36,537 nt of DNA, taken from positions 1 to 36,537 of the forward strand of contig JAJXZF010000028.1 of the NCBI GenBank assembly GCA_021780225.1, written 5' to 3'. The DNA is from Deltaproteobacteria bacterium. Its GTDB lineage: Bacteria; Desulfobacterota; Binatia; Binatales; Binataceae. Of this stretch, positions 125 to 23,916 are shown piece after piece. Under the pieces are notes generated by a model. The model had not been told where the DNA came from. It saw only the letters and a program-made list of their open reading frames with translations, and did not search any database. The position numbers and the translations under genes are program-made. Numbering within the stretch: position 1 is the first letter of the stretch; each line of letters opens with the position of its first letter.

Positions 125-478
125 CACAGCCTGGCCGATCTGATTCGACTGACGCAGGAACTCCAGGGACGAGGCGTCGGATTTGCCTCGCTGACTGAGC
201 ACATCGACACGCGCTCACCCGCCGGGAAGCTCGTGTTCCACATGTTCGGCGCACTGGCGGAGTTCGAGCGCAATCTCATCCGCGAACGAACCCTCGCTGG
301 CCTTAAAGCCGCGCGAGCTCGGGGCCGCAAGGGCGGACGGCCAAAGAAGCTCAGCCAGAAGGAGTTAAAGACGATTCACGCTCTGCTGCGCTCAAATGAG
401 GTGCCCGTCAAGGATATCGCCGCGCAATTCGGCGTTAATCGCTCGACCCTGTACCGCAATATGACGTCAGCGGCTTAA
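125..478 (+). pseudogene. 5'-truncated serine recombinase (resolvase/invertase family)
   Basis: This is the C-terminal two thirds of a resolvase/DNA-invertase-type serine recombinase. Reading frame homology runs from about 125 and includes the AGKLVFHMFGALAEFERN segment, the long E-helix (LIRERTLAGLKAARARG), the GRPKKL linker and a C-terminal helix-turn-helix ending NRSTLYRNM. The catalytic N-terminal part with the YxRVS serine is absent, and the sequence before 120 does not continue the family. It therefore cannot be an active recombinase. The reading frame opens at a GTG at 233, but that lies inside the conserved domain. It is clearly related to, but not a duplicate of, the intact recombinase at 14138. 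It ends 32 bases before the left copy of the 18-bp direct repeat. Confidence 0.8.
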
Positions 479-529: not shown

Positions 530-1147
530 TCAACCCGAGATAGAGAGGTGAGAGAATTCTTCAAACCGAGTCAGCACGTCTTCCGCTCTTTCGCGGGATA
601 GGCCAAGCAGGCTTAGAAGCCGTAGGAGCTCCGCGTCATCGGCGGGAGCAAATCGCTCGGTGGTTGACGGCCATGTAAAGATCGGTCCTCGATCCTCGTC
701 AAACCAAAGGGCATACGAAAAGATATCAGCTCGGTGAGCGCTGCGATCAAGAAATGAGGACAACCTCCTCATCTGCTTCACCAACCACAATTGCGAACGA
801 ACCCCTACTTCGTCAAAGGTCAACCTATCGAGAGAATTGACCGGCGTGGCTGATGCCACGGCTGCAGAATCAATTTGGCTTATCGCTGGCTGCATCATTG
901 GAGCCCGGCAGTGCGAGTGCCCGCAAAGCACGATACGCCTGATCCCCAGTTGCTGGATTGCATAGTCAACCGTTCCCCAACCCGAGTCGCTCCAGCCCGC
1001 GGGGAGTGTCCCGCCAAAGTTTTGGTATATGCAGGCGGGATCCAATAAAGTCGCGAACGCCGTATGTAACGCGCTTTCGGAGCAGGTCACGAGAAGCGCG
1101 TTGGCCGGATTATGAGAGATACCCTCGTTGTTTTGATTGCGTTTCAC
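530..1147 (-). CDS. beta-carbonic-anhydrase-like protein, last gene of hydrogenase-like operon
   Basis: The 205-residue protein resembles beta-class carbonic anhydrases, cytosolic zinc enzymes that interconvert CO2 and bicarbonate. Putative zinc ligands are Cys22, His77 and Cys80 (VLCGHSHC, the H-x2-C motif). The usual first motif CxDxR reads CSESA here. The catalytic Asp is Glu24 and its partner Arg is Ala26, so the classical Asp-Arg dyad is not intact. After about residue 110 the sequence departs from ordinary beta-CAs. The GTG start overlaps the stop of the HyfI-like gene (GTGA), showing that it is the last gene of the membrane-complex operon. It may be a CO2/bicarbonate-binding or regulatory subunit, or an altered CA. 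The family call is good and activity is uncertain. Confidence 0.68.
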   Translation of the reverse strand: MKRNQNNEGISHNPANALLVTCSESALHTAFATLLDPACIYQNFGGTLPAGWSDSGWGTVDYAIQQLGIRRIVLCGHSHCRAPMMQPAISQIDSAAVASATPVNSLDRLTFDEVGVRSQLWLVKQMRRLSSFLDRSAHRADIFSYALWFDEDRGPIFTWPSTTERFAPADDAELLRLLSLLGLSRERAEDVLTRFEEFSHLSISG

Positions 1148-1929
1148 GATGATTTACCCACGGCGGCGGAACCTTCAATTCTGCCGGTAAGGCGCAGCAG
1201 TCCATCGAGAATTGTGATCGGATGTGGCGGACATCCAGCAATGAAGAGATCGATGGGCACAACATTGCCCGCGCCATTGAGAACCTCGGGATGATCGCTG
1301 AACGGACCTCCCGAGATCGCGCACGCTCCGACGGCGATCACGATCTTCGGGTGGGGTACGGCCGCGTAGGTCTTCTCAAGCGCGAGATACATATTGCGGG
1401 TGACCGGACCGGTGATCAGAAGTCCGTCCGCATGCCGCGGTGAGGCCACGAACTGGATTCCGAAGCGTCCCAGGTCAAAGACTACCGTGTTCAGGACGTT
1501 GACATCCGCTTCGCATCCGTTGCAGCCGCCGGCGCTCACCTGCCGGAGTTTGAGGGAACGGCCGAGAACACGACGGATCTCGCCGGCGAGCCGGTCGGCG
1601 AGTTTGAGCGTTTGACCGGGTTTCAAGAGCAAATCGGTCCGGGTGCTTGCCGCAAGGCGATGTTCGTGGCTGAGCTCGATCGCCTTTTCCGGACAGGCGC
1701 TCACGCATTCCGGACAAAAAAGGCATCGCCCGAGGTCGATTTGCAAAGAGCCGTCGCTGGCTATCGCCTCGGTGGGACAGGCGTCAACACAGGCTTTGCA
1801 GCCGACCCGGCATCGCGACTGGTCGATTACGGGCAGACCGCGGAAGCGGTCCGGCAGGTTGGGTTCGGCATCAGGAAACGGCAATGTGCGCTTGCCTTGC
1901 CGGAGCCGGGTTAGCAGTAAGCTCGCCAC
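1144..1929 (-). CDS. ferredoxin-HyfI-like fusion (NuoI-like + NuoB-like small subunit)
   Basis: This 261-residue electron-transfer subunit belongs to a membrane-bound hydrogenase-like complex on the cytoplasmic side. Residues about 30-95 form a two-cluster ferredoxin domain: C40, C44, C47, C51 and C69, C72, C75, C79. Residues about 120-250 are a NuoB/HyfI-type small subunit with the four ligands of the proximal [4Fe-4S] cluster at C136, C139 (GGCNGCE), C203 (GACAISGG) and C233 (GCPPHP). In formate hydrogenlyase complexes these are usually two proteins (HyfH and HyfI); here they are one chain. The start is GTG, supported by a GAGGAA ribosome binding site about 8 bases upstream. The gene follows the large-subunit gene by 9 bp. 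All cluster ligands are present, so electron transfer should be intact. Confidence 0.87.
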   Translation of the reverse strand: MASLLLTRLRQGKRTLPFPDAEPNLPDRFRGLPVIDQSRCRVGCKACVDACPTEAIASDGSLQIDLGRCLFCPECVSACPEKAIELSHEHRLAASTRTDLLLKPGQTLKLADRLAGEIRRVLGRSLKLRQVSAGGCNGCEADVNVLNTVVFDLGRFGIQFVASPRHADGLLITGPVTRNMYLALEKTYAAVPHPKIVIAVGACAISGGPFSDHPEVLNGAGNVVPIDLFIAGCPPHPITILDGLLRLTGRIEGSAAVGKSS

Positions 1930-1938
1930 CGAAATTCC

Positions 1939-3441
1939 TCAAAGGTCATGACCGCAGTAGGAAAGGTTGAAGCTTTTGTTGCAGAGGGGGAAATCGGAGA
2001 TTTGCTGATCGCGCATGGCGATCGCCAAGCCCATCCAATTGCGAAATGACGGGTCGATCACCTTGTAGCGGGCGAATCGTCCGCTATCATCAGTGATAGC
2101 CACATGTGCGATCTCTCCGCGCCACCCTTCAGTGAGAGACACGACCAGGTAAGCCGGCGCCATCGGCGAAACCGCAATCCGGGTCGGGCCTTGCGGCAAC
2201 GAGGCTAGTTGTTCTCGAACGAAGACGGCGGAGCGCTGGATTTCGAGCCATCGCACCCACGCGCGGGCGAAAACGTCGCCTGTGTTCCACTTCGATATGG
2301 GAATCTGAGCGAACCTGAAGATCCCGCTAGGGGCGTCCTGCCGAACGTCCCGCTCGACGCCCGAGGCGCGAGCCGCCGGGCCGACGAGTCCGAGCGCCTT
2401 GCAGGTGGCGGCATTTATGGCGCCGGTGTCCTCGAAACGCGCTTGCACAGAGGGTGCATCCCACATAAGCCGGGTCGCATCCTCGACGTCTTTTAATGCC
2501 TTGTCCAGGCGGCGCGAGAGTTCGCCGGCGAGATTCGCGTCGACATCGGATAAAACGCCGCCAGGTCTGAGCATGCCGCGACCGAATCGACTTCCACAAA
2601 TCGCGGCTGTGAGATTGAGGAAATCTCCGCGAATCCGCCCACAATACGCCGCTGTTGGCAAATAGCCGACGTCACCCGCCAGTGCACCGAGGTCGCCGGT
2701 ATGGTTTGCGATCCGCTCGAGTTCGAGGGCGATACCGCGCAGAACCAGCGCGCGCGGGGGGACTGCGGTCCCGCTCAAGCCTTCAACCGCTTCGCAATAG
2801 GCAGTCGCGTGTCCAATGGAGCTGTCTCCCGACAGCGTTTCGATCAAGTGGATCGCGCGTTTGTTCGGCCCTCCAGCTAGAGCGGCTTCGACGCCGCGAT
2901 GCTGATAGCCGAGCGAAATCTCGAGGTGGAGAACACGCTCGCCGTGGCATTGGAAGCGAAAGTGACCAGGCTCGATGACTCCGGCATGCACGGGGCCGAC
3001 AGCGACCTCATGGACTTCGTCCCCGTCAAGTCTGAAGAACTCGGTTGCGCCACTAAGCGGGGTTCGAGCAGCCCCGGACAACCGATAAGGGGGGTGGAAC
3101 CGAATCGGCTTGAGCCACGGATGGCCTTGCGGCTCAATGTTCCACTGCTCCGCAATTTCGCGCTCGAACCAATGCGCTTGCGTGCACTCGACCGTCAGGC
3201 TGGGGTAGGCCTCGTTCACTTTGGCGCTAAGCGCGGACAGGCTGCTGGAAATCGAGTCGGCCAGTACGCCGAACAAATGTATCTCGCTATTTTCCGCAGG
3301 TGCGCCGAACAGCGCCGTCAGAGTGGAACCGGCGTGCACTGCGGAAATGATTTCGGCTCTGAACTGGCGCACAGGAAGACACGGCACGCTCGCGAGCGCT
3401 ACCGGCTCTCCGCTATGGAACGATGGCAATGAGATCGTCAT
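1939..3441 (-). CDS. HyfG/EhrL-like large subunit without the N-terminal Ni site
   Basis: This is the large catalytic-type subunit of a group 4 hydrogenase/complex I-like enzyme. An N-terminal NuoC-like region (about the first 120 residues, including HWFEREIAEQWNI) is fused to a NuoD-like region, as in HyfG/HycE. Where [NiFe] hydrogenases carry RxCGxCxxxH, this protein reads LSGDSSIGH (residues 203-211), so the first Ni-binding cysteine pair is missing. Near the C-terminus it ends PLCNKSFNLSYCGHDL, with Cys487 and Cys496 instead of DPCxxC. It should not bind a normal NiFe centre, which matches the described Ehr (energy-converting hydrogenase-related) complexes. ATG at 3441 is preferred, 8 bp after the preceding stop; an in-frame GTG at 3474 would add 11 residues. 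Confidence 0.85.
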   Translation of the reverse strand: MTISLPSFHSGEPVALASVPCLPVRQFRAEIISAVHAGSTLTALFGAPAENSEIHLFGVLADSISSSLSALSAKVNEAYPSLTVECTQAHWFEREIAEQWNIEPQGHPWLKPIRFHPPYRLSGAARTPLSGATEFFRLDGDEVHEVAVGPVHAGVIEPGHFRFQCHGERVLHLEISLGYQHRGVEAALAGGPNKRAIHLIETLSGDSSIGHATAYCEAVEGLSGTAVPPRALVLRGIALELERIANHTGDLGALAGDVGYLPTAAYCGRIRGDFLNLTAAICGSRFGRGMLRPGGVLSDVDANLAGELSRRLDKALKDVEDATRLMWDAPSVQARFEDTGAINAATCKALGLVGPAARASGVERDVRQDAPSGIFRFAQIPISKWNTGDVFARAWVRWLEIQRSAVFVREQLASLPQGPTRIAVSPMAPAYLVVSLTEGWRGEIAHVAITDDSGRFARYKVIDPSFRNWMGLAIAMRDQQISDFPLCNKSFNLSYCGHDL

Positions 3442-3448
3442 AAGAGGT

Positions 3449-4915
3449 TCAGCCGAGGAGGCGCGCGGCTTCACGAAGCGCGCGTGACAAAACTGGCGGC
3501 ATATAGATTCCCATGACTAGAACTCCAATGCCGAGCATCGCTGGCGCCACGCTCAACGCCATGCTTCTCGGACGCGCTGGAGCAACGGGTTCGGCCGGTG
3601 TCCCCTGCGCCATCGCGAGCGCCGGCGCGGCCATAGCGGCCAGAATCACGGCCAGGATAGCCAAATAAGCGACGGCGATAAGAATTTGGCCTTGATCGAG
3701 CGCGGCTTTCAGAATTGTGAATTCACTCAGGAATGGTCCGAAGGGGGGAGAACCCGTGATTGCGAACAATCCCAATAGCCACAGCACGCCGGATGCCGGC
3801 GCCACGCTCAACACTCCCGCAACACCATCGGTATTCTTGGTGCGGTAAAGGGCCAACAGGTTTCCAGCCACCAAAAAAAGCATCGCCTTCGTCAGCGAAT
3901 GGTTAATGATGTGGAGCACCGCACCAAAAACGGCGGCGCCACCCAGACCCACGCCCACGGCGAGAATCCCCATGTGCTCGACACTAGAATAGGCCAGCAT
4001 GCGCTTGTAGTCGGTCTGGCCGGAAATGAACACGGCTGCCACGGCCATCGAGAGCAAACCGAACGCGAGCAGCAGCCGGTCGCTGAAGTCGGCCAAGCCA
4101 GCGGCGACACAGATCTCCTGAGCGCGCAGTATGCCCAGGAAAGCGCAGTTGAGCAGCGCTCCGGAGAGGAGCGCCGATGCGACCGAGGGGGCCTCGCTAT
4201 GAGCGTCCGGCAGCCACGTATGAAACGGCGCCAAGCCCATCTTGGTCCCGTAGCCGACCAGCAGCAAAACGAAAGCCGCCTTGAACCATGGGACATTAAG
4301 GTGATGCGCGTTCAAGCGCAGGTCTTGCATCATCAGTGCGATAGTTGAGCCATCGGGACTTGTCGCTGCGACGGCCAAAAAGAAAACGCCGAGCAGCGCG
4401 AGCGCGATTCCCACTGAACAGATGAGCAGATACTTCCACGTCGCTTCCAACGAACGGTGATGACGGTGGAAGTAGATCAACGGCGCGCTCGCGAGCGTGG
4501 TGGCTTCCACAGCTATCCAAAGCAACGCGACCTGCTGGCTGACGGCGACCAACGTCATAGCGGCCAGAAAGAGCAGCAAACAGCCAGTGAAGCTCGCCTC
4601 GCGAGCGTTGGAGAAGATAAAGCCCTCCTCGATATCGCTATGCGGCTGGCTTCTTTCTTCGCGAAGATACGCTACGGCATAAAAGCTGACGGCCAGAAAC
4701 AGCACGCTGGTTAGAGTCTCGATGAGTCTCCCGAGCGCGTCTTCCGCGAGCCAGCCGCATAGCACCGGCGTCGGCCAGACAATCCAGGTTTCAAGGCTGA
4801 GCGCGGTTTGCGTCAGGGCGGCGAAGATCAGCAGACCACGACGGAGCCGGTCCGATGCGACGAAGAACGTCACGATTCCGGCACAAGCCGGTATTAATAC
4901 GAGCAGCGTAATCAT
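3449..4915 (-). CDS. HyfF-like proton-pumping membrane subunit
   Basis: The 488-residue polytopic membrane protein belongs to the Mrp antiporter/NuoL-M-N superfamily, closest in type to HyfF. Landmarks are LLWIAVEATTLASAP (membrane Glu), GYGTKMGLAPFHTWLPDAH (Lys and the loop-helix motif), YKRMLAYSSVEHMGI and HIINHSLTKAMLFL. These residues form the proton half-channels in complex I-like antiporter subunits. The ATG overlaps the stop of the HyfE-like gene (ATGA), so translation is probably coupled. Together with the HyfB-like protein it gives the complex two antiporter-type modules, as in hydrogenase-4. The ion moved (H+ or Na+) cannot be told from the sequence. Confidence 0.87.
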   Translation of the reverse strand: MITLLVLIPACAGIVTFFVASDRLRRGLLIFAALTQTALSLETWIVWPTPVLCGWLAEDALGRLIETLTSVLFLAVSFYAVAYLREERSQPHSDIEEGFIFSNAREASFTGCLLLFLAAMTLVAVSQQVALLWIAVEATTLASAPLIYFHRHHRSLEATWKYLLICSVGIALALLGVFFLAVAATSPDGSTIALMMQDLRLNAHHLNVPWFKAAFVLLLVGYGTKMGLAPFHTWLPDAHSEAPSVASALLSGALLNCAFLGILRAQEICVAAGLADFSDRLLLAFGLLSMAVAAVFISGQTDYKRMLAYSSVEHMGILAVGVGLGGAAVFGAVLHIINHSLTKAMLFLVAGNLLALYRTKNTDGVAGVLSVAPASGVLWLLGLFAITGSPPFGPFLSEFTILKAALDQGQILIAVAYLAILAVILAAMAAPALAMAQGTPAEPVAPARPRSMALSVAPAMLGIGVLVMGIYMPPVLSRALREAARLLG

Positions 4916-5568
4916 CGCGGCCGGTCAGTCAGCGCTACAAGCTTGTCCGTATCAATGTGATCGAATTCGCGGCTGATATGAAATATCGCAATCCCCATTA
5001 CAAACACTCCCACAAAGACATCGAGCAGGATTCCAAGTTCCACGAGAACTGGAAGCCGGAGAGCGGCCGCGGCGCCAAATGCGTAAACGCCATTTTCGAG
5101 AGCGAGGTATCCGACCACCTGGGTCAGAGCCTTTCGGCGGCTGACTATCACGATCATGCCCACGAGACTGGTGAAAAGGGCCGCAGGAACGAGAAGTGAT
5201 GAAGGTAACTGACTTGGAAGCTGTAAACGTTCTCCCAGCCACAGGGCAAGAGCCAGAACAACGGCGCCGGAAATGATCGACAGGTTATAACTAATAAGCG
5301 GCTCGACTTCGCGCACGGTGTCGGCTTCACGCATGGCCCGTGAGAGCAACCACGGAAGTAGGAAGCCCTTGACCACTGCTGTGGTGATAGGAAGCAGCAC
5401 ACCGGATATGGTCAGTTGTCCACTTTGCATCGAGATGGCAAGAAGACCAAGCAACACTCCTTGAAAAGCGACCGATCGTATACAGGTGGCCAGCCGGCTT
5501 GAACCAAGAAGCATAAATCCGCTGAGCACCAGAAGGACGAGAATCGGGTTAATCAGTTGCATCATCAT
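4912..5568 (-). CDS. HyfE-like small membrane subunit
   Basis: The 218-residue hydrophobic protein has about six or seven predicted membrane segments, beginning INPILVLLVLSGFMLLGSS. Its length and position between HyfC- and HyfF-like genes match HyfE of hydrogenase-4, a NuoK/MrpC-related subunit that bridges the antiporter modules. The start falls in three successive ATG codons; the first (5568) is used here. It lies 9 bp after the HyfC-like stop, and its own stop overlaps the next start. The assignment leans on context, since HyfE proteins are weakly conserved. Confidence 0.8.
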   Translation of the reverse strand: MMMQLINPILVLLVLSGFMLLGSSRLATCIRSVAFQGVLLGLLAISMQSGQLTISGVLLPITTAVVKGFLLPWLLSRAMREADTVREVEPLISYNLSIISGAVVLALALWLGERLQLPSQLPSSLLVPAALFTSLVGMIVIVSRRKALTQVVGYLALENGVYAFGAAAALRLPVLVELGILLDVFVGVFVMGIAIFHISREFDHIDTDKLVALTDRPR

Positions 5569-5577
5569 TCAATACCG

Positions 5578-6480
5578 CTAAAACGCCAGCGCGAGAGCCG
5601 AGAGCACGATCGCGACGAGGAGCAACTGGGGCACACGGAGCAGCCGCAATCGCGCCATCGTGGATTCGACCAAGCCGGTCGCAATTCCGAGAATCAACAT
5701 GCCCATCAAGCCGACGGCCGTATCGACCCATCGATTGCCGGAGCGCCATGGAGCCGCCACGGCGATGATGATTGTCGCGAACAGCCACATCTTCAGCGCT
5801 GCGCCATATTGAATCATGGCGAAATCCGGTCCGCTGTGATCGAGTACCATCACTTCATGAATCATGGTCAATTCTAGATGGGTAGTCGGATCGTCGACTG
5901 GCATCCGGGCGTTCTCGGCCAAAAAAACGATCATCAGCGCGCCCAGCGTCAGACTGAGCATAGGTGCCGCATGGCTCCATGCGCCGGGGGAAACCGCTGC
6001 CAGCAGCAGACTGAGCGACAGCTGTCCCGTTTGCCGTGCCAGCGCAGCAAGGGCCAGAAATAGAGCAGGCTCCGTGAAAGCAGAGAATGTCACCTCACGG
6101 CTCGCGCCCATTCCTTCGAAGCTGGAGCCAGTGTCGAGAGCCGCCAGAACCGTGAAGAAGCGGCCGAGCGCTATCAGGTATGCAAAGACGACGAGGTCGC
6201 CAGAGAACGCCGAGAGCGACGGGAACCCTCCAAATGGGAGCAGTGTCAGCGCAAAAACAACGGACGCAAGGCCGACTACGGGGCCCATCTGGAAAATCCA
6301 TGAAGTCGTGTGACTATAAACAGCGCCCTTGTGCAGTAGTTTCCATATATCCCAGTACGGCTGCATCAGCGGCTGACCCGCGCGCCCCGCCACTACAGAC
6401 TTGGTTCGGATGATTACGCTCTGCATCAGCGGAGCAAGTGCGCCCGCCGCGATCAGCGGAAACAAGGATGGAGCAGCCAT
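5578..6480 (-). CDS. HyfC/HycD-like (NuoH-like) membrane anchor subunit
   Basis: This NuoH-type membrane protein of about 300 residues connects the electron-transfer arm to the antiporter modules. Diagnostic segments are QPYWDIWKLLHKGAV near the N-terminus, ALDTGSSFEGMGASREVTF, FTEPALFLALAAL and the loop ENARMPVDDPTTHLELTMIHE with its conserved acidic residues. All are characteristic of HyfC/HycD and NuoH proteins. ATG at 6480 lies 2 bp beyond the HyfB-like stop and is preferred; an in-frame TTG at 6498 would add six residues and overlap the upstream gene. The protein is full-length for the family. Confidence 0.88.
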   Translation of the reverse strand: MAAPSLFPLIAAGALAPLMQSVIIRTKSVVAGRAGQPLMQPYWDIWKLLHKGAVYSHTTSWIFQMGPVVGLASVVFALTLLPFGGFPSLSAFSGDLVVFAYLIALGRFFTVLAALDTGSSFEGMGASREVTFSAFTEPALFLALAALARQTGQLSLSLLLAAVSPGAWSHAAPMLSLTLGALMIVFLAENARMPVDDPTTHLELTMIHEVMVLDHSGPDFAMIQYGAALKMWLFATIIIAVAAPWRSGNRWVDTAVGLMGMLILGIATGLVESTMARLRLLRVPQLLLVAIVLSALALAF

Positions 6481-6482
6481 GA

Positions 6483-8456
6483 TTAGGCGAGTTGCCAAAG
6501 CAGCAGCACAAGTAGGGTTACGACGATATACAACACGTAAAGCTGGACTCTCCCTTGCTGTAACGGCCGTAAGGACGCCATCGCCCGGCTGACGGACTGA
6601 AATAAGGGCTGGAAAAAATATCTCCGGTAGGGATCGTCGGTGTGTGAATGAAACTCCGCCCGTTGCGGGAACAATGGCTCTAATCCCGTGAGGACTTCAC
6701 GCGTTTGCAAGAGCATCCCGAAACTTTCTGTCAGGGGTTGCGCAAACGACGACGCTGTGTATTGCATCCGTGGCGACGGGCTGGCATACCCGCAGTCCCA
6801 CGTCGGGGCGGTTGAAATTTGGCGTCGACCAAACGTCTTGCTCCGGGCGAGACTGAGCAACGCGACCACTCCGGTCAGGAGGGCGCCGAATTGGCCAACG
6901 CGCGCCACGGAGTTTCCCATTTCAATGAGGTCGCGAGAGATCAGGATGGATGGCAGTCCGGTCGCGGTTGATATCAACGGACCCATCGACCTCACCACGC
7001 TGGAGCCCAACAGTCCTATCAAAACGCATCCCGCCGCCAGTAAAAATCCGGGGACAAGCATCGCCAGGTTGACGTCCTCGGGATGGCCGGCGCCCTCGCA
7101 TCGTGGATGACCGAGAAAAACAATGCCGAACGCCTTGGTAAAACACGCCACCGCCAGAGCTCCGATCAGTGCAAGCCCCGAGATCGTTGCCAGCATCGGC
7201 ACGCTGCTCGACGCGCCCAACGATACGGAGCCCTTAAGGCTGGCGAGGTAAATCAAGAACTCGCTGACGAATCCGTTTAGTGGCGGCAAACCCGAGATAG
7301 CTGCCGCTCCGATGAGGAAAGTCACGCCGGTGCCGGGCATGCAGCGCAGAAGGCCGCCGAGGTGGTCGATCTCGCGAGTATGGGTAGCGTGAACGATGTT
7401 GCCCGCGTCGAGAAAAAGCAGGCCCTTGAATATTGCGTGGTTCAGTACATGAAGTAACGCGCCGGCGAAGCCCGCGACCGCGACAAAGGGTTCGTCAACG
7501 CTCAGTCCGACGATACCCACACCGAGGCCGAGAGCTATTATCCCGATGTTTTCAACGCTGTGATACGCGAGTAACCGCTTGAGGTCGTGTTGCGCAAGCG
7601 CGAGCAACACACCCAGAATGCCGGAACTCAAGCCAACGATGCACAGCGTCCACCCCCACCACGCATGCACTGGACCGAGAAAAATTAGAATCCGCAGCAG
7701 ACCATAAATTCCTGTTTTGATCATGACCGCGGACATAACCGCAGAAACATGACTTGGCGCCGCTGGATGAGCCTCCGGCAACCACACGTGAAGCGGCACA
7801 AACCCCGCCTTGGCGCCAAACCCAACCAGCGCCAGGACGAAAAGTACTCCGGCGTTCGAAGCCGGACTGAAGCGATCGAAATCGAGCGACCCATTTGATT
7901 TTCCGAGCAGCACGAAGAGCACGAACAAGAATGCCGTGCCAATATGGCTCGCCACTAAGTACATCCATCCCGCCTGACGCGTGCTCTCCTCCTCGCTCTC
8001 GAAGGTGACCAGAAAAAACGAGGAAAGCGCCATGGTCTCCCATGCCATGAGAAACAGGACTGCGTTGTTGGCCAAAACGACCACCGCCATGCTGGCGGTA
8101 AGCACGTTCAGGAAGAACCAGGGAGGCGCCAGCGCTTTTCTGCCGCAGTAGGCTTCGAGGTATTCAGTCCCATAGAGGGCGGCAAGCGCCGATATCAGAA
8201 AAGTCGGCAAGAGGAAGAAAGCCGACAGCGCATCGAGCCGCAGGTATAAGCTGCCATAAGGAACATCCCATGCCACGCGCAGCGACTGCGGCGGCGCTCC
8301 CAGTGCGACGCCAATCGCCGGGACCAACCCGAGCACAGACCCGAGAATGATGCCGCCGGCCCCGAAAATCCGCAGCCAGCGTTCGCGCTTGGCGAAGGCA
8401 AGCGAAGCCGCGGCTCCCGCGCCAAAGATGAGCAGCGAGATCAGCAGTGCGGTCAT
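6483..8456 (-). CDS. HyfB-like proton-pumping membrane subunit
   Basis: The 657-residue NuoL/Mrp-superfamily protein is of the HyfB/HycC type. Visible landmarks are FLMAWETMALSSFFLVTFE (membrane Glu), GFGAKAGFVPLHVWLPEAHP (Lys and loop), LKRLLAYHSVENIGIIALG and HVLNHAIFKGLLFL. The C-terminal TWDCGYASPSPRMQYTASSF block is typical of HyfB-like proteins. The ATG overlaps the stop of the HTH-EIIA regulator (ATGA), so regulator and structural genes share one transcript. It is the first and largest structural subunit of the complex, whose expected role is ion translocation coupled to electron flow through the ferredoxin/NuoB-like arm. Confidence 0.88.
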   Translation of the reverse strand: MTALLISLLIFGAGAAASLAFAKRERWLRIFGAGGIILGSVLGLVPAIGVALGAPPQSLRVAWDVPYGSLYLRLDALSAFFLLPTFLISALAALYGTEYLEAYCGRKALAPPWFFLNVLTASMAVVVLANNAVLFLMAWETMALSSFFLVTFESEEESTRQAGWMYLVASHIGTAFLFVLFVLLGKSNGSLDFDRFSPASNAGVLFVLALVGFGAKAGFVPLHVWLPEAHPAAPSHVSAVMSAVMIKTGIYGLLRILIFLGPVHAWWGWTLCIVGLSSGILGVLLALAQHDLKRLLAYHSVENIGIIALGLGVGIVGLSVDEPFVAVAGFAGALLHVLNHAIFKGLLFLDAGNIVHATHTREIDHLGGLLRCMPGTGVTFLIGAAAISGLPPLNGFVSEFLIYLASLKGSVSLGASSSVPMLATISGLALIGALAVACFTKAFGIVFLGHPRCEGAGHPEDVNLAMLVPGFLLAAGCVLIGLLGSSVVRSMGPLISTATGLPSILISRDLIEMGNSVARVGQFGALLTGVVALLSLARSKTFGRRQISTAPTWDCGYASPSPRMQYTASSFAQPLTESFGMLLQTREVLTGLEPLFPQRAEFHSHTDDPYRRYFFQPLFQSVSRAMASLRPLQQGRVQLYVLYIVVTLLVLLLWQLA

Positions 8457-9157
8457 GATTGAGACGCGTCCGTATGCGGCCGACGCGGGATCGCATCTTC
8501 CACTCTCTGAAATTCAGCGATCATCTCCGTTAAGGGCGCACGGCGCGCAAGCGCCGCTCTCAACTCCGGATCATGAAGCGCGAACGATAAGCGCGAGAGT
8601 AGGTGCAGATGCATGCGCGCGGTCGGACTGCCTATCAGGAAAATCGCGAATACAGGTTTGTCGTCGGGAGCGCCGAAATCGACTGGCCGCTCGAGAAGGT
8701 ACAGCGAAATTGAAGCGGGCGAACCGTTCAAGAGAATGGGTCTGCGCACGTGCGGTATCGCGATACCTTCGCCGATTGCGGTAGAGCCCATCGTCTCACG
8801 CGCGAGCAGAAGCTGCGCGACCGCTTCGCGGTCGAACTTGGGCGGCAGAGTGAGAGTATCAACTATGCCGCGCAGCACCGTCGGCTTGTCAGCGCCGCCC
8901 GGTCCGTGAAAAATCCCACCGGCGCTAAGCGCGTCGACCAGCGAAGAGTTGTGTTCTCCGTCTGGTTTGGGAGACGCGAAGATTTCCGCTTGGACGTCGA
9001 TCTCGCGCGAAGACGCCAACTCAAGAAGGTCACTCCGGTGGAGCTGGTATTGTTGGTTGACAAGATCGGCGCGTAAAATCCCGCGCCTGATCCATTCGTT
9101 TATTCTTTTTTCGGAAACCTTGAGAAGTCTTGAGACTTCCCGAATGTTCAGGTGCAT
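8453..9157 (-). CDS. HTH (excisionase/MerR-like) + PTS EIIA-domain regulator, operon leader
   Basis: The 234-residue two-domain protein has an N-terminal helix-turn-helix of the excisionase/MerR type (NIREVSRLLKVSEKRINEWI). A linker leads to a C-terminal EIIA domain of the fructose/nitrogen PTS class (about residues 85-225). The EIIA phosphoacceptor is present in GIAIPHVRRP. No other PTS protein is encoded in the window, so this is likely a phosphorylation-responsive sensor and not a sugar transporter part. A good ribosome binding site (GGAGAG) lies about 9 bases before the ATG. The stop overlaps the HyfB-like start, making it the first gene of the hydrogenase-like operon. It is paralogous in architecture to the divergent gene at 10082. 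Control of the complex by these two proteins is an inference from position. Confidence 0.82.
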   Translation of the reverse strand: MHLNIREVSRLLKVSEKRINEWIRRGILRADLVNQQYQLHRSDLLELASSREIDVQAEIFASPKPDGEHNSSLVDALSAGGIFHGPGGADKPTVLRGIVDTLTLPPKFDREAVAQLLLARETMGSTAIGEGIAIPHVRRPILLNGSPASISLYLLERPVDFGAPDDKPVFAIFLIGSPTARMHLHLLSRLSFALHDPELRAALARRAPLTEMIAEFQRVEDAIPRRPHTDASQS

Positions 9158-10081
9158 TTAAGACAGCTCTCCGCCAGCCGCGCCACAACTTATGCGCGGC
9201 TCTTCTCAAACCTCGCAAATGTCAGAAATGACTCAACTCTGGTCCGAATGCAGCAGCCGGGCCGATAGACCGGGGAGCATTACCGAAGCAGAGCAGTTAT
9301 CAGTCAATCCAGCGTTGGGTGACGTTTATCGCAGGTTCGCTGCGGAGCGCAGGCCCAAGCGAAGAGCGTCATTGCCAACAGGCTATTCAGTGCGCAGTCC
9401 ATACACTTGCAGGGCGAGCACTCTGCGAAATGAAGGTTCAACGGCTCCACGTTGCGCGCAACACAATATCGGCGCCAGAGCAGATGCCTGCCGGGATGTC
9501 CGTCGGCCGTCTCACCGTCCGTCGGGTCGTCGCTGGTGAACCCAAGCAGGCCACAGAGAAGCTGCCCGATTCGATACCGTAGGTAGGACGCCCGGCCGGC
9601 GTAAAGGAGCTTGCCAGCGCCATCAGGCATCCCCCAAATGTCCGTTCGGATACAACGGACACGCCTGGCGCATCCGGCGGCCTCGGATTCGAACCGCCAA
9701 TCACCTTGGTGAGATAATCGTCGATTCTGAACGGCCCCACTCAGGAAAGCGCGGTTGAGCCGTTTTCCTTTCCGCCTCCTCGCACATCACTCAACCCCCG
9801 ATGACGATCGCACCGTGCAATGCACCATCATGACGCCCACGACAACGCCTCCCCATGCGTGTCGCGTAGTCTCTCATGCGCTTGGAGAGGCCGCAGGCCC
9901 CGATGGGCCGACAATCATCGAAACGCATCCATTCAAAAGTCGCTCCAAGAAGTCTGCGCCTCGCAAGTCGCATCATAACGGTAATTCATTGCGCTCTGGC
10001 GTAGTTTTACGTAATCTTACGCCTGTGTCAAATGTTCTCCGTAAAGCGACGGAAGAATCGATCAAGATTAGCGACCGGCTT
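9158..10081. other. long intergenic region between divergent regulators
   Basis: These 924 bases separate two divergently oriented HTH-EIIA genes. No open frame here looks coding. One minus-strand frame (9304-9630) is cysteine-rich but has no family features I recognise. An in-frame N-terminal extension of the plus-strand regulator from 9755 is low-complexity and unlike the paralogue. The minus-strand promoter of the hydrogenase-like operon must lie here, but I see no unambiguous -35/-10 or -24/-12 pair. An inverted repeat at 9998-10023 is listed separately. A tRNA T-loop-like string at 9685-9695 has no tRNA around it. Confidence 0.5.
9998..10023. promoter_or_regulatory. inverted-repeat operator candidate upstream of the plus-strand regulator
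   Basis: GGCGTA (9998-10003) and TACGCC (10018-10023) are perfect inverted arms around an AT-rich core. Inside lie two direct heptamers, TTTTACG and TCTTACG. The element sits about 60 bp before the proposed ATG at 10082, in the intergenic region shared by the two regulators. It is a reasonable binding site for either HTH protein. No experimental or comparative support is available here. Confidence 0.4.
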
Positions 10082-10795
10082 ATGACCGCGCGACAAGTCG
10101 CGGCGTACCTGAATGTGAACGAGCGCACCGTCCTGAAGCTCGTTTCAGAGGGGGCGCTGCCCGGCGTGAAAATCGGCAACCAATGGCGCTTCCGTAAGGC
10201 GATGCTTGATGCATGGCTTGATGACCAGATGCTTGGCGTGGCGCCGCAGCATCTTGAACTCGAAAATCGAACCCAGGCGCCGCGCCGGATGCTCGATCTG
10301 GCGAGCTGCTTTCAGCCCAGCCATATCGTGCCGGAGCTCGCGGCCACTACGAAAATCGGCGTTATTGAAGAGCTTGCGGACAGCGCCAATCGCCTGGGCT
10401 TGGTCCGAGACAAAAACTGGTTCGTTGGCGCGCTCATCGAGCGCGAGAACATCATGCCGAGCGCCGTTGGCAATGGCGTGGCCTTTCTGCACACGATGAA
10501 TCGCCATCCCGAGCAAGTGGTACGACCCTTTATGGTGCTTGGCCGTTCGCGTGCCGGTGTCGATTTCGACGCGCTGGACGGCCGACCCACGCATCTCTTT
10601 TTCGTCCTTGGTCTCAAGTTCCATGAGTTGCACCTTCCATGGCTGGCCAAGCTCGCGCAGCTTTTTGCACATCCTGAGGCAACGGACGCGCTGGTTGCGG
10701 CGCCGAATGCTTCGGCAATGTTCGATTCTCTGTCCCAGGCGGAGCGGTGCTTGTTTCCCTTGCACAGCGGGCACGGACGGGAGATCGCCCGATGA
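10082..10795 (+). CDS. second HTH + PTS EIIA-domain regulator
   Basis: This 237-residue protein (ATG 10082) has an excisionase-type DNA-binding domain at its N-terminus (MTARQVAAYLNVNERTVLKL, then GALPGVKIGNQWRFRK). An EIIA-type domain follows. The phosphoacceptor region reads GNGVAFLHTMNRH: the His is kept, but the surrounding motif is less canonical than GIAIPH in the paralogue at 8453. The open frame extends upstream to 9755. The extra 109 residues are low-complexity with no counterpart in the 234-residue paralogue, so the later ATG is preferred; no strong ribosome binding site is visible. The gene is divergent from the hydrogenase-like operon. The two proteins may sense different signals or act as a heteromeric switch, which is inference. 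Confidence 0.75.
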   Translation: MTARQVAAYLNVNERTVLKLVSEGALPGVKIGNQWRFRKAMLDAWLDDQMLGVAPQHLELENRTQAPRRMLDLASCFQPSHIVPELAATTKIGVIEELADSANRLGLVRDKNWFVGALIERENIMPSAVGNGVAFLHTMNRHPEQVVRPFMVLGRSRAGVDFDALDGRPTHLFFVLGLKFHELHLPWLAKLAQLFAHPEATDALVAAPNASAMFDSLSQAERCLFPLHSGHGREIAR

Positions 10796-13219: not shown

Positions 13220-13645
13220 TCACTTGAGGGATGCGAGTCCCCGTGTTTTCGCCGCCGCGTTTAACGCACCGTCAAAACAGGCGAAGGTCACCGTGGTGCG
13301 GAGCACCGCCTGCAAGGCGTCGGCGGTCGCCAGATGAAGAGCGTCCAGCGCCCGCAGAGCATGTTCCTCCGTCAGATTGCCAGCCTTGCGCACCAGCGCT
13401 TCATCAACCGGCAGCAGATGAAGCCGCTCCCAATCGCGCTCGAATTCCTGCCTTAATCGATTAAGCGTACTGCGCGTGATTTCCTCGCCGCGATGCTTCC
13501 TCGCCAGCGCCGAACGCGCTTCGGCATAAGACAAAAGACTGGTGGCGACGAGGCCCGCGTCAGCCACCGCCCGCCGCACAACTTCGCTCCCTATCTCTTC
13601 GGCGTAGAGCTTTACCAGCGCCGAAGTGTCAAGGTAGAGAATCAA
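13220..13645 (-). CDS. vapC: VapC-like PIN-domain ribonuclease toxin
   Basis: The 141-residue PIN-domain protein belongs to the VapC type, Mg2+-dependent endoribonucleases that cleave tRNA or rRNA when free of antitoxin. The acidic residues are visible: Asp6 in MILYLDTSALVKLY, the Glu in LSYAEARSAL, the Asp in RALDALHLATADAL, and the last Asp in TFACFDGALNAAA. Length is normal for the family. Its ATG overlaps the stop of the antitoxin gene (13642-13645), so the two are translated from one message. The gene looks intact, which fits maintenance of a mobile region. Confidence 0.88.
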   Translation of the reverse strand: MILYLDTSALVKLYAEEIGSEVVRRAVADAGLVATSLLSYAEARSALARKHRGEEITRSTLNRLRQEFERDWERLHLLPVDEALVRKAGNLTEEHALRALDALHLATADALQAVLRTTVTFACFDGALNAAAKTRGLASLK

Positions 13646-13932
13646 CCCCGCTCTTCCAGGACTATTTCTGCAAGCGTCTTGTGTCCGGGCGGTATTCTGA
13701 TGGGCCTCTTCGCGCCCAGCGGTTTACCGCCCGACCCCGGTCGCGCGCCGGAAATGAGCTTGAGTCGGCGCAAGAGTTCTTCACGGTCCGGCTTCTCGCC
13801 CGACTCTTCCGGCATCGCCAACAAACGCACCACCGGCCGGCCGCGCGATGTGACCACCACGTCGCGGCCGGCGCGGGCGTCCTTCAGATATCGAGACAGC
13901 CTCGCCTTGAGATCGCGAACCGATACGTTCAT
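13642..13932 (-). CDS. vapB: Phd/VapB-type antitoxin
   Basis: The 96-residue antitoxin is of the Phd/YefM class. It begins MNVSVRDLKARLSRYLKDAR and continues GRDVVVTSRGRPVVRLL, the usual DNA-binding and dimerisation fold. A flexible C-terminal half follows, which would wrap the PIN toxin. It is the first gene of the pair, overlaps the toxin start by 4 bp, and is expected to autoregulate the operon. The promoter should lie in 13933-14000 on the minus strand, close to the candidate res region of the divergent recombinase. Confidence 0.85.
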   Translation of the reverse strand: MNVSVRDLKARLSRYLKDARAGRDVVVTSRGRPVVRLLAMPEESGEKPDREELLRRLKLISGARPGSGGKPLGAKRPIRIPPGHKTLAEIVLEERG

Positions 13933-17013: not shown

Positions 17014-19389
17014 ATGTTGGTCGCGGTTGGCGGCTTGCCAGCCTGTACGATGCGCGCTCTACCGATCTTAATTTTTGCGCTGTCGTTGGCGCTCGGTCCG
17101 GGTCTCGATTCGGCGGCCGGCGCAAATGCGCCCGTCGCGCTCACGCCGGCGGCGCTCGCGCCGATTGCCGAAATTGTTCATTCCGAGATCGCCGCCAGGC
17201 ATATCCCCGGCGCGGTCGTGATAGTTGGCCAAGGCGACGCGACGCTTTACCGCCGCGCCTTCGGCCTGCGCCGCGAGGGACTCGTCCGCACGCCGATGAC
17301 AGCCGACGCGATTTTCGATCTCGCGTCGCTCACCAAAGTCGTCGCCACCACCACGGCCGTGATGCAACTGGTCGAGCGCGGCAAGCTCAGGCTCGACGCT
17401 CCCGCGGCCGATTACTGGCCGCGCTTCGGCGCGGCGGGAAAATCCGCCGTCACGATCCGCGAATTGTTGACCCACTATTCCGGGCTGAAGGCCGATCTGT
17501 CGCCGGCCGGCCGCTGGTCGGGCTACGGCGCCGCGATGAACCTGCTGGCCGCGGATCGGCCGCGCTTCGCGCCCGGCACGCGCTACCTCTACAGCGACGA
17601 AAATTTCGCGGCGCTCGGCGAACTGGTGCGGCGCGTTGCGGGGCTGCCGCTCGACGTCTATTGCGCGCGCAATATCTTCCAGCCGTTGGGGATGGACGAC
17701 ACGCGCTTCGACCCGCCGGATGACGAGGGCGGCCGAATCGCTCCGACCGAATCGCGATCGCGCGCGCCGGCGACGGTCAACGATCCGACCGCGCGTCGGA
17801 TGGGTGGAGTGGCCGGCCACGCGGGCCTTTTCTCAACCGCCGACGACCTCGCGAGATTCGCGCGGATGCTGCTTGGCGGCGGCCGGCTGGGCGGGGCGAG
17901 GATACTCGCCCCGTCGTCGGTCGCGCTGATGACGACGCCGCAATCGCCGCCCGGCGCCACGCGATGGCGCGGCCTGGGATGGGACGTCGCAGCGCCGTTC
18001 GCCTCGGATCGCGATCGACTCTTTCCCGCCGGCTCGTACGGCCACACCGGCTATACCGGCACGATGATGTGGATCGATCCGGTAACGCGCGTGTATGTGA
18101 TCGTGCTGACCAATCGCACCTACCCGGACGGCGGCGGCGACGCACGGCCGCTGCGCAAACGGATTATCGATTTGATCTGCGCGGCGGCCGGGCCGCTCGC
18201 GCCGGCGCAGATCGCCGCGGCCGTTCCCGGCCTCGAACGCTACTACCCGGACGGCGCGGCGCCGGCGGTCGCCGCCGGAATCGACGTTCTGGCGAGCGAG
18301 GATTTCGCGCCGCTGCGCGGCTTGCGAATCGGTCTGATCACCAACCAGACCGGACGCGACGCGGCGGGCGCCGCCGATAGCGACCTGCTGCGCGCCGCGC
18401 CGGGGGTGAAGCTGGTCGCGATCTTCACGCCCGAGCACGGTCTCGCCGGCGACCGCGACGGGAGGATCGCTTCGCGGACAGATCCCGCTACCGGCCTGCC
18501 GATCTTCAGCCTCTACGGCGACGTGACCAGGCCGACGCCGGCGATGCTCGACGGAATCGACGCGCTGGTCTTCGATCTTCAGGACGCCGGCGCGCGTTTC
18601 TACACCTATGTCGCGACGATGGCTTACGCGATGCGGGCGGCGGCCGCGCGCCGAATCGAGTTTTTCGTGCTCGACCGGCCCGACCCGATCGACGCGGCGG
18701 TGGTGCAGGGTCCGATGCTCGATCCGGCGCTGGAGTCGTTCACCGGCTATTTTCCGATGCCGGTGCGATACGGCATGACGATCGGCGAGCTGGCGCGGAT
18801 GTTCAACGCGGAAAATCATCTCGGCGCGCGCCTGCATGTCGTCGCGATGCGCGGATACCGGCGCGGCGACTGGTACGACGAGACCGGCTTGCGCTGGATC
18901 GATCCCTCGCCGAATCTGCGCTCGCTTGCCGAAGCCGCGCTCTATCCGGGCGTGGCGCTGGTCGAGGGCGGCAATCTCAGCGTGGGACGCGGCACTCCGA
19001 CGCCGTTCGAACTCGCCGGCGCACCGTGGATCGACGGCGCCCGGCTCGCCGATTATTTGAACCGAAGGGGAATTTCAGGGGTCGCCTTCGCGCCTGCGGA
19101 TTTCAGTCCGGCGGCGGCGCCGTACCGGGGCCGGCTCTGTCATGGCGTGCGAATCAAACTGACCAATCGCGACCAACTCGACTCGCCGGCGCTGGGCGTC
19201 GAATTGATCGGCGCGCTCCGACGGCTCTATCCGGCGAAATTCCGCGTCGGCGACACGCTCGGCATGATCGGTTCGCGCCGGGCGCTCGAGGCGCTCGAGC
19301 GCGGCGACGATCCCCGGGTTGTCGCGCGCGGATGGCGCCCGCCGCTGCGCGCGTTTGACGGGATGCGCGCGAAGTACCTGATCTACTGA
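17014..19389 (+). CDS. secreted serine beta-lactamase-fold hydrolase fused to NamZ (DUF1343) muramidase
   Basis: This 791-residue two-domain exported protein has a hydrophobic signal region (MRALPILIFALSLALGPG) in the first 35 residues. Residues about 55-390 are a class C beta-lactamase/esterase-type domain with the SxxK motif at Ser105-Lys108 (SLTK), YSD at 193 in place of YxN, and HTG at 344 (GHTGYTG). Residues about 430-791 form a DUF1343/NamZ domain (LRGLRIGLITNQTGRD, IFTPEHGLAGD, FDLQDAGARFYTYV), the GH171 exo-beta-N-acetylmuramidase family that releases MurNAc from glycan ends. The fusion suggests sequential trimming of peptide-bearing wall fragments. ATG 17014 has GGGAG at the right distance; ATG 17050 is an alternative and also leaves a signal peptide. 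The next gene follows within 11-14 bp. Confidence 0.85.
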   Translation: MLVAVGGLPACTMRALPILIFALSLALGPGLDSAAGANAPVALTPAALAPIAEIVHSEIAARHIPGAVVIVGQGDATLYRRAFGLRREGLVRTPMTADAIFDLASLTKVVATTTAVMQLVERGKLRLDAPAADYWPRFGAAGKSAVTIRELLTHYSGLKADLSPAGRWSGYGAAMNLLAADRPRFAPGTRYLYSDENFAALGELVRRVAGLPLDVYCARNIFQPLGMDDTRFDPPDDEGGRIAPTESRSRAPATVNDPTARRMGGVAGHAGLFSTADDLARFARMLLGGGRLGGARILAPSSVALMTTPQSPPGATRWRGLGWDVAAPFASDRDRLFPAGSYGHTGYTGTMMWIDPVTRVYVIVLTNRTYPDGGGDARPLRKRIIDLICAAAGPLAPAQIAAAVPGLERYYPDGAAPAVAAGIDVLASEDFAPLRGLRIGLITNQTGRDAAGAADSDLLRAAPGVKLVAIFTPEHGLAGDRDGRIASRTDPATGLPIFSLYGDVTRPTPAMLDGIDALVFDLQDAGARFYTYVATMAYAMRAAAARRIEFFVLDRPDPIDAAVVQGPMLDPALESFTGYFPMPVRYGMTIGELARMFNAENHLGARLHVVAMRGYRRGDWYDETGLRWIDPSPNLRSLAEAALYPGVALVEGGNLSVGRGTPTPFELAGAPWIDGARLADYLNRRGISGVAFAPADFSPAAAPYRGRLCHGVRIKLTNRDQLDSPALGVELIGALRRLYPAKFRVGDTLGMIGSRRALEALERGDDPRVVARGWRPPLRAFDGMRAKYLIY

Positions 19390-22115: not shown

Positions 22116-22812
22116 CAGTTGCGGCTGCGAAACCCTGTCGCGACGAACGATCGACGTGAACCAGCCGCTGCTGGCGGCGAACGCGGCCGCCGCGCGGCAT
22201 AATCGCGAGCATTTCGCGGCGCGACAGATTTTCACCGTCAACTTGATGGGCGCGCCGGGAGCCGGGAAAACCGCGCTGCTCGAAGCGACGATCCGGAACT
22301 GGCGCGGCGCCGGACGAATCGGCGTGATCGAGGGCGACCAGGCGACCGAGCGCGACAGCGCGCGCGTGCGCGCGGCGGGCGCGCTCGCGCATCAGGTCGA
22401 AACCGGCCTGGGATGCCATCTGGACGCCGCCCAGATTCATCGCGCGCTGCATCGCATGGAGCTCGCTCGCGGCGACGTTTTGTTTATCGAGAACGTCGGC
22501 AATCTGGTATGCCCGGCGCTGTTCGATCTCGGCGAAAATCTGCGGATTGTCGTGACCAGTCCCGCCGAAGGGGTCGACAAACCGCTCAAATATCCGCCGA
22601 TGTTCCGCGCGGCCGAGCTGGTAACGCTCAACAAATGCGACCTGCTCGGGCATGTGCCGTTCGCGCCGGATGAATGGACGGATTACGTGATCGCGGCCAA
22701 TCCGCGCGCCCGCATCCTCAGAACCGCCGCGATCGACGGCGCCGGCATCGAGGCGTGGCTGGAGGAAATCCTGCGCCGCCGGCGGGCTTTTCTCGAGTCG
22801 AGCGCCAAATGA
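22108..22812 (+). CDS. hypB: HypB, GTPase for nickel insertion
   Basis: The 234-residue SIMIBI-class GTPase powers nickel delivery with HypA. MCDSCGC at the start is the high-affinity nickel motif of some HypB proteins. It lacks the long His-rich stretch seen in rhizobial forms. The P-loop GAPGAGKTALLE, IEGDQATERDS (switch), ENVGNLVCPA and LNKCDLL (NKxD-type guanine specificity) are all present. Its start overlaps hypA and its stop overlaps the hydrogenase beta gene (ATGA). Confidence 0.93.
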   Translation: MCDSCGCETLSRRTIDVNQPLLAANAAAARHNREHFAARQIFTVNLMGAPGAGKTALLEATIRNWRGAGRIGVIEGDQATERDSARVRAAGALAHQVETGLGCHLDAAQIHRALHRMELARGDVLFIENVGNLVCPALFDLGENLRIVVTSPAEGVDKPLKYPPMFRAAELVTLNKCDLLGHVPFAPDEWTDYVIAANPRARILRTAAIDGAGIEAWLEEILRRRRAFLESSAK

Positions 22813-23915
22813 ACGAGGCGACGCGCATGCCGAAGGCCGCACTCGATAATCTGATCGCGATTCTGGGACGCGAAGGTTACCGGGTTATGGGTCCGGTTGC
22901 GCGCGACGGAACGGTCGCGTTCGACGAAATTCGCTCGGCCGCCGATCTGCCGGTCGGAATCCGCGACGCGCAGGAGGCCGGCCGTTATCGATTGGCGCCA
23001 GGAATCGACGGCGAAATTTTCGGCGTGGTCAACGGCGCCGGATCGCTCAAACCGCACTTTTTCGCGCCTGCGGAGCCGCTGCTGGAAATCCGCCGCGAAC
23101 GCCGCGGATTCAAGGCGAATGAAATCGCGTCGGCCGCGCCGCCCCATGCGTTTATCGGCGTGCGCGCCTGCGACCTCGCCGCGCTCGCGATTCAGGATCG
23201 TATCTTCCTGCACGATCGCTTCCGCGACGCTCATTACGAATTGCGCCGCAAAGACGCTTTTTTCGTCGCGGTCGACTGCACCCGATCGGCGCCGACCTGC
23301 TTCTGCGTCTCGATGAAAACCGGACCGCGGGCGACGGCGGGTTTCGACCTTGCCCTGACCGAGTTGCCCGGCGGTTTCGTGGCGCGCCCCGGTTCGCCCG
23401 CCGGCGAGGCGATGATCGTGAAGCTGGGCTTGAGCGCCGCCGGCGGCGCCGACGAAGCCGCCGCGCGGGCGCTAATCGACGAATGCGCGCGCGGCATGGG
23501 CCGGCGGATGGACACCGCCGATTTGCCGCGGCTGCTGTACGACGAGGCCGAGAATCCGCGCTGGCGCGAAGTCGCGGCGCGATGCCTGTCGTGCGCCAAC
23601 TGCACGATGGTCTGTCCGACCTGCTTCTGCCATACGGTGATCGATCAAACGGAAATCGACGGCAATATGAGCCGGCGCGTCCGGAAGTGGGACTCCTGTT
23701 TCTCGCTCGAGCACGCACACATTCACGGCATCAACTTGCGGCCGAAGATCCACGACCGTTACCGCCAATGGCTGACCCACAAGCTCGCTTCCTGGATCGA
23801 TCAATTCGGCTCGTCGGGATGCGTCGGATGCGGACGATGTATCACGTGGTGTCCCGCAGGTATCGATTTGACCGAGGAGGTCGCCGCGATTCGCGCCAGC
23901 GCGGGCAAGGGCTGA
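22809..23915 (+). CDS. group 3b hydrogenase/sulfhydrogenase beta subunit (Fe-S)
   Basis: The 368-residue cytosolic iron-sulfur protein carries electrons between the small subunit and the flavin subunit in NAD(P)-linked group 3b hydrogenases (HydB/HyhB type). Two [4Fe-4S] motifs are visible in the C-terminal half: CLSCANCTMVCPTCFC and CVGCGRCITWCPAG. The N-terminal part (FGVVNGAGSLKPHFFAPAEP, IGVRACDLAALAIQDRIFL) is typical of the sulfhydrogenase beta family. The ATG at 22809 overlaps the hypB stop; an upstream extension to 22674 lies inside hypB and is not used. One base separates it from the gamma gene. Confidence 0.88.
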   Translation: MNEATRMPKAALDNLIAILGREGYRVMGPVARDGTVAFDEIRSAADLPVGIRDAQEAGRYRLAPGIDGEIFGVVNGAGSLKPHFFAPAEPLLEIRRERRGFKANEIASAAPPHAFIGVRACDLAALAIQDRIFLHDRFRDAHYELRRKDAFFVAVDCTRSAPTCFCVSMKTGPRATAGFDLALTELPGGFVARPGSPAGEAMIVKLGLSAAGGADEAAARALIDECARGMGRRMDTADLPRLLYDEAENPRWREVAARCLSCANCTMVCPTCFCHTVIDQTEIDGNMSRRVRKWDSCFSLEHAHIHGINLRPKIHDRYRQWLTHKLASWIDQFGSSGCVGCGRCITWCPAGIDLTEEVAAIRASAGKG

Positions 23916-23916
23916 C

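Follow-up and report, generated by a model that had tools for sequence, protein, structure and literature searches.

An Ehr operon in a Binataceae genome with an HTH-EIIA gene at its head and a rare carbonic-anhydrase-like gene at its end

The 36,537-nt contig JAJXZF010000028.1 (assembly GCA_021780225.1, Deltaproteobacteria bacterium, family Binataceae), the whole of which is referred to here as the window, carries an operon of eight genes on its minus strand (nt 530 – 9157), with gene ends that overlap or nearly abut according to open reading frame (ORF) calls and translations. Judged by its sequence, this operon encodes an Ehr complex, an already described kind of complex (the name was reportedly introduced by Marreiros 2013). 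Overall, it is probably best explained as an Ehr pump with a regulator that combines helix-turn-helix and enzyme IIA domains (HTH-EIIA) and stands under the phosphotransferase system (PTS), and with a carbonic-anhydrase-like (CA-like) protein that is an accessory or passenger outside the core. Restricted to one lineage, the CA-like gene is a rare local addition to the Ehr operon, and the EIIA regulator, rather than the CA-like gene, is the more useful lead.

The operon begins with the HTH-EIIA gene (nt 8453 – 9157), the PtsN-like product of which matches Pfam PTS_EIIA_2 (2.4e-21) and HTH_17 (9.6e-8) and shows the motif GEGIAIPH in its translation. Next come a HyfB-like antiporter subunit (nt 6483 – 8456; Proton_antipo_M, 3.9e-55; NF005086, hydrogenase 4 subunit B, 2.8e-185, under cut-off), a HyfC/NuoH-like membrane subunit (nt 5578 – 6498; Pfam NADHdh, 7.4e-29), a HyfE-like membrane subunit (nt 4912 – 5568; NF008556, hydrogenase 4 membrane subunit, 1.1e-24, under cut-off) and a HyfF-like antiporter subunit (nt 3449 – 4915; Proton_antipo_M, 5.4e-49; NF005044, hydrogenase 4 subunit F, 1.2e-107, under cut-off). 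The HyfG/NuoCD-like large subunit (EhrL-like; nt 1939 – 3474; Complex1_49kDa, 3.6e-39; Complex1_30kDa, 1.1e-5) precedes a fusion protein, Fd-I, in which two [4Fe-4S] ferredoxin motifs are joined to a HyfI/NuoB-like small subunit (nt 1144 – 1929; Oxidored_q6, 8.6e-29, and Fer4 families). The last gene (nt 530 – 1147) specifies a divergent beta-CA-like protein (Pro_CA, 3.6e-7, above the gathering score and covering residues 17 – 82 only), the start of which overlaps the Fd-I stop by 4 bp (GTGA, nt 1144 – 1147). The initial annotation of this region had named seven overlapping or nearly abutting structural genes, all of which were found on the minus strand with the expected families; the HTH-EIIA gene is an eighth within the same interval that it did not mention. 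Fd-I contains 12 cysteines, including the kept cluster cysteines. The HyfB-like subunit carries Glu140, Lys216 and Lys344, and the HyfF-like subunit Glu137, Lys225 and Lys343, which we take, by analogy with NuoL and NuoM, to be important positions.

The assignment to Ehr is made because the four Ni-ligand cysteines are all missing from the large subunit. Its best solved match is HycE of formate hydrogenlyase (FHL; 7z0s_E, 1.4e-41 by phmmer), and in this alignment S215-G-D-S218 stands opposite the CGIC motif of HycE, and S505 opposite the first Cys of DPCYSC; the last Cys of that motif is placed on G508 by ungapped extension beyond residue 506, where the alignment stops. Cysteine is found at none of the four positions, and the two NiFe-binding CxxC motifs of energy-converting [NiFe] hydrogenases (Hyf/FHL) were not detected in the large subunit of the operon. 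An alignment of 15 homologues shows T, S, A or E at position 218, an invariant S at 505, an invariant G at 508 and Cys at 215 in just one, so that no homologue has Cys at more than one of the four; the C-terminal sequence DFPxxNKSFxxSYxGxDL is strongly conserved across the same set. In contrast, the other hydrogenase large subunit encoded in the window (nt 25495 – 26793) retains RICGIC and DPCISC. Further structural hallmarks of Ehr are likewise present, namely a HyfI/NuoB-like small subunit with cluster cysteines and the antiporter-like HyfB and HyfF together with HyfC and HyfE. The view of the initial annotation that this is an Ehr-type large subunit devoid of a Ni site is borne out, and H2 chemistry by the complex appears unlikely from these motifs.

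Published Ehr complexes are described, in the available portions of four reports, as lacking Ni-binding residues (PMC10284858, PMC6349859, PMC4378227, PMC7304191), and their function is stated as not known in two of these (PMC10284858, PMC4378227). They share with the window operon a group-4-like large subunit without Ni ligands and partners of the complex I/Hyf type. The window adds the HTH-EIIA gene at the head and the CA-like gene at the end (the latter in the window and one relative), neither of which was met in those portions of the four reports. FHL and Hyf (hydrogenase-3 and -4) supply the closest solved large-subunit match as well as the NCBIfam names of subunits B, E and F, but FHL retains the Ni-ligand cysteines and the window complex does not.

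A search with the large subunit gave matches at 1e-20 in 157 of the 198 genomes of the phylum; the top 33 listed, the window's own included, have at least 46% identity, and many of the weaker ones are likely to be complex I or hydrogenase relatives. The 131 loci examined comprise 39 from the phylum sample (37 genomes, L032 – L070), 12 from the family and 80 named loci, the latter being the best 80 of 579 candidates, grouped from record titles under labels that include Planctomycetota, Verrucomicrobiota, Deltaproteobacteria, Acidobacteriota, Spirochaetota and Elusimicrobiota. The order EIIA-B-C-E-F-G-FdI is typical across the fetched phylum, family and named loci. Loci that lack Fd-I or have less than 650 bp downstream are excluded from the counts of the CA-like gene, which removed nine of the 80 named, three of the 32 phylum and two of the 12 family loci; L032, a family member, was shifted from phylum to family, leaving 28 phylum loci, and addition of the window gave 12 for the family.

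The initial annotation had called for a test of whether the CA-like gene is co-conserved with Ehr, and this test came out against its reading. The gene adjoins 2 of the 12 adequately flanked family copies (the window and its relative, locus L081) and is absent from the other 10, as it is from all 71 named, all 28 further phylum and all seven second-type loci with enough downstream sequence; at plasmid Ehr loci it was found at 0 of 8 checked. Six-frame peptides of the 131 loci were searched with a beta-CA hidden Markov model (HMM) built from three canonical CAs and, by phmmer, with the window CA-like protein, and L081 was the sole hit of both searches. As a control, the HMM found the CA in 15 of 15 CA-bearing loci (11 distinct genes, three of them training genes), and it also recovered the window CA-like protein and its homologue in genome G238, with one low-scoring extra hit (L083, 5170 – 7446). 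A conserved partnership of CA and Ehr was rejected, only L081 among the 131 loci having matched and the controls being positive.

The wider distribution of the CA-like gene is equally sparse. Ten of 148 genomes of the class match the window CA-like protein at 1e-5, and the only close relatives besides the window are those of G240 (54% identity, beside Ehr) and G238 (42%), while a profile search of 395 phylum genomes returned five at 1e-12, namely the window's genome and four distant ones. The G238 homologue is an orphan (L082, 11611 – 12153) that precedes purE/purK-like genes, as read from the translation, and a search of the genome for an Ehr large subunit was negative at 1e-80. A survey of Pro_CA in 40 genomes gave a match in 30, of which only the window's genome has one at an Ehr locus; genomes G059 and G098 have a CA roughly 11 – 12 kb from the Ehr large-subunit gene. 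In the large-subunit tree the window and its L081 relative stand in an open fork, a position that leaves a single gain versus repeated loss undecided. Genome G240 has a second Ehr copy, on contig C88, and because this is nearly identical to that of G221, one of the two Ehr-bearing contigs of G240 may be contamination.

Of the features expected of a catalytic beta-CA, the window protein has the Pro_CA family match, the fold and the Cys-His-Cys Zn ligands, and it lacks the Asp-Arg dyad (CxDxR), which is needed for beta-CA catalysis. The ligands Cys22, His77 and Cys80 are retained in all seven aligned rows, and the protein probably binds Zn, to judge from these residues. At the CxDxR position the window protein reads CSESA (Glu24 replaces Asp, and Arg is missing), L081 CSTSA and the G238 homologue CAESP, so that the dyad is lost in all three members. 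The AlphaFold2 model, built from six rows, has a mean pLDDT of 71.9, and its 50 listed best structural matches are all beta-CAs, the best being CcaA (5swc_F, E 8.6e-8, TM about 0.5). That the protein is still catalytic, either as a CA or as a related hydrolase acting on carbonyl sulfide (COS) or CS2, with Glu24 serving for Asp and no Arg, would agree with the intact ligands and with the nearest folds; it is improbable, however, given Thr at the Asp site of L081, Ala or Pro at the Arg site of all three members, and CSDSR in all nine distinct canonical CA genes that matched the pattern (two further HMM hits, L198 and L199, fall outside it).

The CA-like genes of the window and G240 share 54% protein identity, with a nonsynonymous divergence (dN) of 0.35 and a ratio to synonymous divergence (dN/dS) of 0.21, at a high dS of 1.6. 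For E (partial), F, G and Fd-I the same comparison gives 79 – 88% identity, dN 0.07 – 0.12 and dN/dS 0.08 – 0.14. The CA-like gene evolves at three to five times the rate of the complex genes, yet is under purifying selection; because of this dN/dS and its divergence relative to the complex genes, it is taken, on these alignments, to be maintained but fast-evolving. A pseudogene was ruled out by the same dN/dS and the open frames.

These data bear on the proposal of the initial annotation that the complex is a redox-driven CO2/bicarbonate machine. In DabAB and NDH-1/CupAB, CA-like chemistry occurs beside NuoL-type subunits, and by this comparison the CA-like protein would be a working part that uses redox energy to convert CO2 to bicarbonate, or the reverse. 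The place of the gene in the operon, the start/stop overlap in two genera (GTGA in the window, ATGA in L081), the retained Zn ligands and the purifying selection are all compatible with such a role. However, it is not supported, because the CA-like gene is absent beside the orthologous complexes of most relatives, and we consider it highly improbable: the dyad is lost, the window's genome has two further Pro_CA genes elsewhere (by family match alone) and no RuBisCO was found in it when searched for. Unlike the situation in DabAB and CupAB, the CA-like gene is neither conserved with the membrane subunits nor catalytically intact by motif, and a Pfam search of the eight operon proteins gave no DabA-like or Cup-like hit.

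Within the preferred explanation, a CA-like protein outside the core, two more specific cases can be distinguished. In the first, which has close to an even chance, the gene was captured as a passenger and is only transcribed along with the operon, its product acting alone. Its presence beside so few family copies, the undecided tree position, the orphan homologue in G238 and a resolvase-like ORF just past the gene (nt 233 – 478, plus strand, by reading of the translation), which may mark a mobile boundary, would all be accounted for; the 4-bp overlap kept in two genera and the purifying selection speak against a pure passenger. In the second, which is rather doubtful, the protein would be a Zn- and bicarbonate-binding pseudo-enzyme that docks on the side of Fd-I and HyfG, where it serves as a subunit for structure or for CO2 sensing. 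The combination of retained ligands and lost dyad in all three members, the overlap with the Fd-I stop and the selection on the gene are in its favour, and there is a precedent in CA2L of plant complex I, which is described in the available part of the source as lacking two of three essential histidines (PMC7447434). Against docking are the want of co-conservation, the fast divergence, and the occurrence of the orphan homologue in a genome where the search for an Ehr large subunit was negative.

The initial annotation also regarded the combination as one not previously described, and this does not hold. In Acidithiobacillus caldus, the genomic island GIAcaTY.4 has hyfBCEFG immediately adjacent to a beta-CA gene, and the accessible text treats the cluster as an H2-evolving hydrogenase (PMC3826726); the likeness to the window is drawn from this description and not from Ni motifs or the CA dyad. 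Plant mitochondrial complex I has gamma-CA subunits, some without Zn ligands, for which, according to the portion available, CA activity has not been measured to date (PMC7447434). As in the window, partly degenerate CA-like proteins accompany a relative of complex I, but the plant domain has the gamma fold, is eukaryotic and is structurally shown to bind. The complex encoded by the window operon is of a known kind, and the CA-like gene is an addition restricted to one lineage. In open PMC literature, a search for carbonic anhydrase paired with EhrL gave none related among the matches listed. A beta-CA with Zn ligands but no dyad, still under purifying selection and encoded next to a redox pump, would give bacteria a counterpart of the degenerate CA-like proteins of plant complex I.

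The gene at the head of the operon is the better conserved companion. After omission of the loci with less than 900 bp upstream, which number 19 among the 80 named, three among the 32 phylum and five among the 12 family loci, an HTH-EIIA homologue lies within 10 kb of the large-subunit gene in 43 of the remaining 61 named loci, 18 of the 29 from the phylum and all seven from the family. By group, it is present in 12 of 13 Planctomycetota, all 10 Verrucomicrobiota, 4 of 8 of the Geobacter group, 1 of 4 Acidobacteriota and neither of two Elusimicrobiota. In 67 of 70 loci with the gene, the next downstream complex gene is on the same strand (gaps of 0 – 469 bp), and in 59 it is hyfB, again on that strand; in several Verrucomicrobia and related loci HTH-EIIA follows one B-like match and precedes C. 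Pfam detected both domains in 7 of 10 homologues, and the EIIA His motif occurs in 67 of 76 hits. The protein has the PTS_EIIA_2 domain and GxGIAIPH motif in common with PtsN (EIIA-Ntr), from which it differs by the N-terminal HTH_17 domain and the genetic linkage to Ehr. In the window's genome the EIIA_2 domain and phosphoacceptor His motif of a PtsN-like regulator are accompanied by genes for enzyme I (EI) and HPr. EI genes were detected in 36 of the 40 family genomes, and all 12 genomes tested for HPr had it (the hit in G104 being weak and partial), the window's included in both. Family genomes with Ehr average 2.85 EIIA_2 domains (13 genomes) versus 1.30 in those without (27 genomes; Mann-Whitney p 7e-6), a comparison that is partly circular, as the Ehr-linked EIIA adds to the count, and that ignores relatedness. 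From gene content and motifs, we infer that Ehr may be under PTS control by way of HTH-EIIA, for which no precedent tying EIIA or PtsN to hydrogenases was found in the open PMC literature. PTS state would then become a testable input for Ehr, through a regulator gene that often travels with it across phyla.

Two further PTS-related observations were made near Ehr operons. A second protein with HTH_17 and PTS_EIIA_2 is encoded beside the window operon on the opposite strand (nt 9755 – 10795, plus strand), and homologues with 70 – 76% identity to it occur near Ehr in L110, L111, L114 and L115. In L201 (760 – 1023) and L202 (124 – 387), two of the seven annotated plasmid loci, an HPr gene is annotated on the strand opposite to the Ehr operon and a few kb upstream of it; the hosts are Paraburkholderia and Burkholderia, and this is a second hint of a link to the PTS.

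Several observations, in addition to the circularity and the weak G104 hit just mentioned, weigh against the preferred explanation. HTH-EIIA is missing at 18 of 61 named, 11 of 29 phylum and 8 of 8 plasmid Ehr loci checked, and is therefore not obligatory. Pfam matched HTH_17 alone in 3 of 10 homologues (L185, L192, L180), and the gene order deviates at L041, L052 and L153. Genome G240, in which the CA-like gene also adjoins Ehr, yielded HPr but no EI; the negative EI result lowers the weight both of the best explanation and of a broader reading, in which Ehr complexes of many phyla form a class of PTS-controlled ion pumps. In that broader reading phosphorylation of the EIIA histidine lets HTH-EIIA sense the phosphoenolpyruvate/pyruvate (or nitrogen) state, and the pump is switched either transcriptionally or by docking of HTH-EIIA on it, and one lineage has added a dyad-less, Zn-binding CA pseudo-enzyme as a bicarbonate-responsive second regulator; it is put forward tentatively, as somewhat unlikely.

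For the pump with a PTS-linked regulator and a non-core CA-like protein, a mechanism can be proposed that starts from the observed gene content, operon order, Ni-ligand loss, cluster cysteines and antiporter charges. The low-potential donor would most likely be reduced ferredoxin, the electrons of which would enter via the Fd-I fusion and reach a pocket without Ni between HyfG and HyfI; the acceptor reduced there would not be H+, and quinone is a guess. Coupling by way of HyfC and HyfE would link this redox step to the transport of cations by HyfB and HyfF. HTH-EIIA would act as the operon regulator, the EIIA histidine being phosphorylated by the PTS of the cell and thereby setting expression or activity, and the CA-like protein would most likely be a non-catalytic accessory or passenger outside the core mechanism.

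Elsewhere in the window, some 13 kb away from Ehr, nt 22674 – 30879 (plus strand) encode HypD and a [NiFe] hydrogenase that resembles sulfhydrogenases and has intact Ni motifs; the best NCBIfam matches of the large subunit of this hydrogenase, mentioned above, are sulfhydrogenase alpha subunits, under cut-off. A single ORF (nt 17014 – 19386, plus strand) combines a beta-lactamase-family domain with NamZ exo-beta-N-acetylmuramidase domains, and a gene pair resembling a PIN-like toxin and an antitoxin was recognized from the translations at nt 13220 – 13932 (minus strand).

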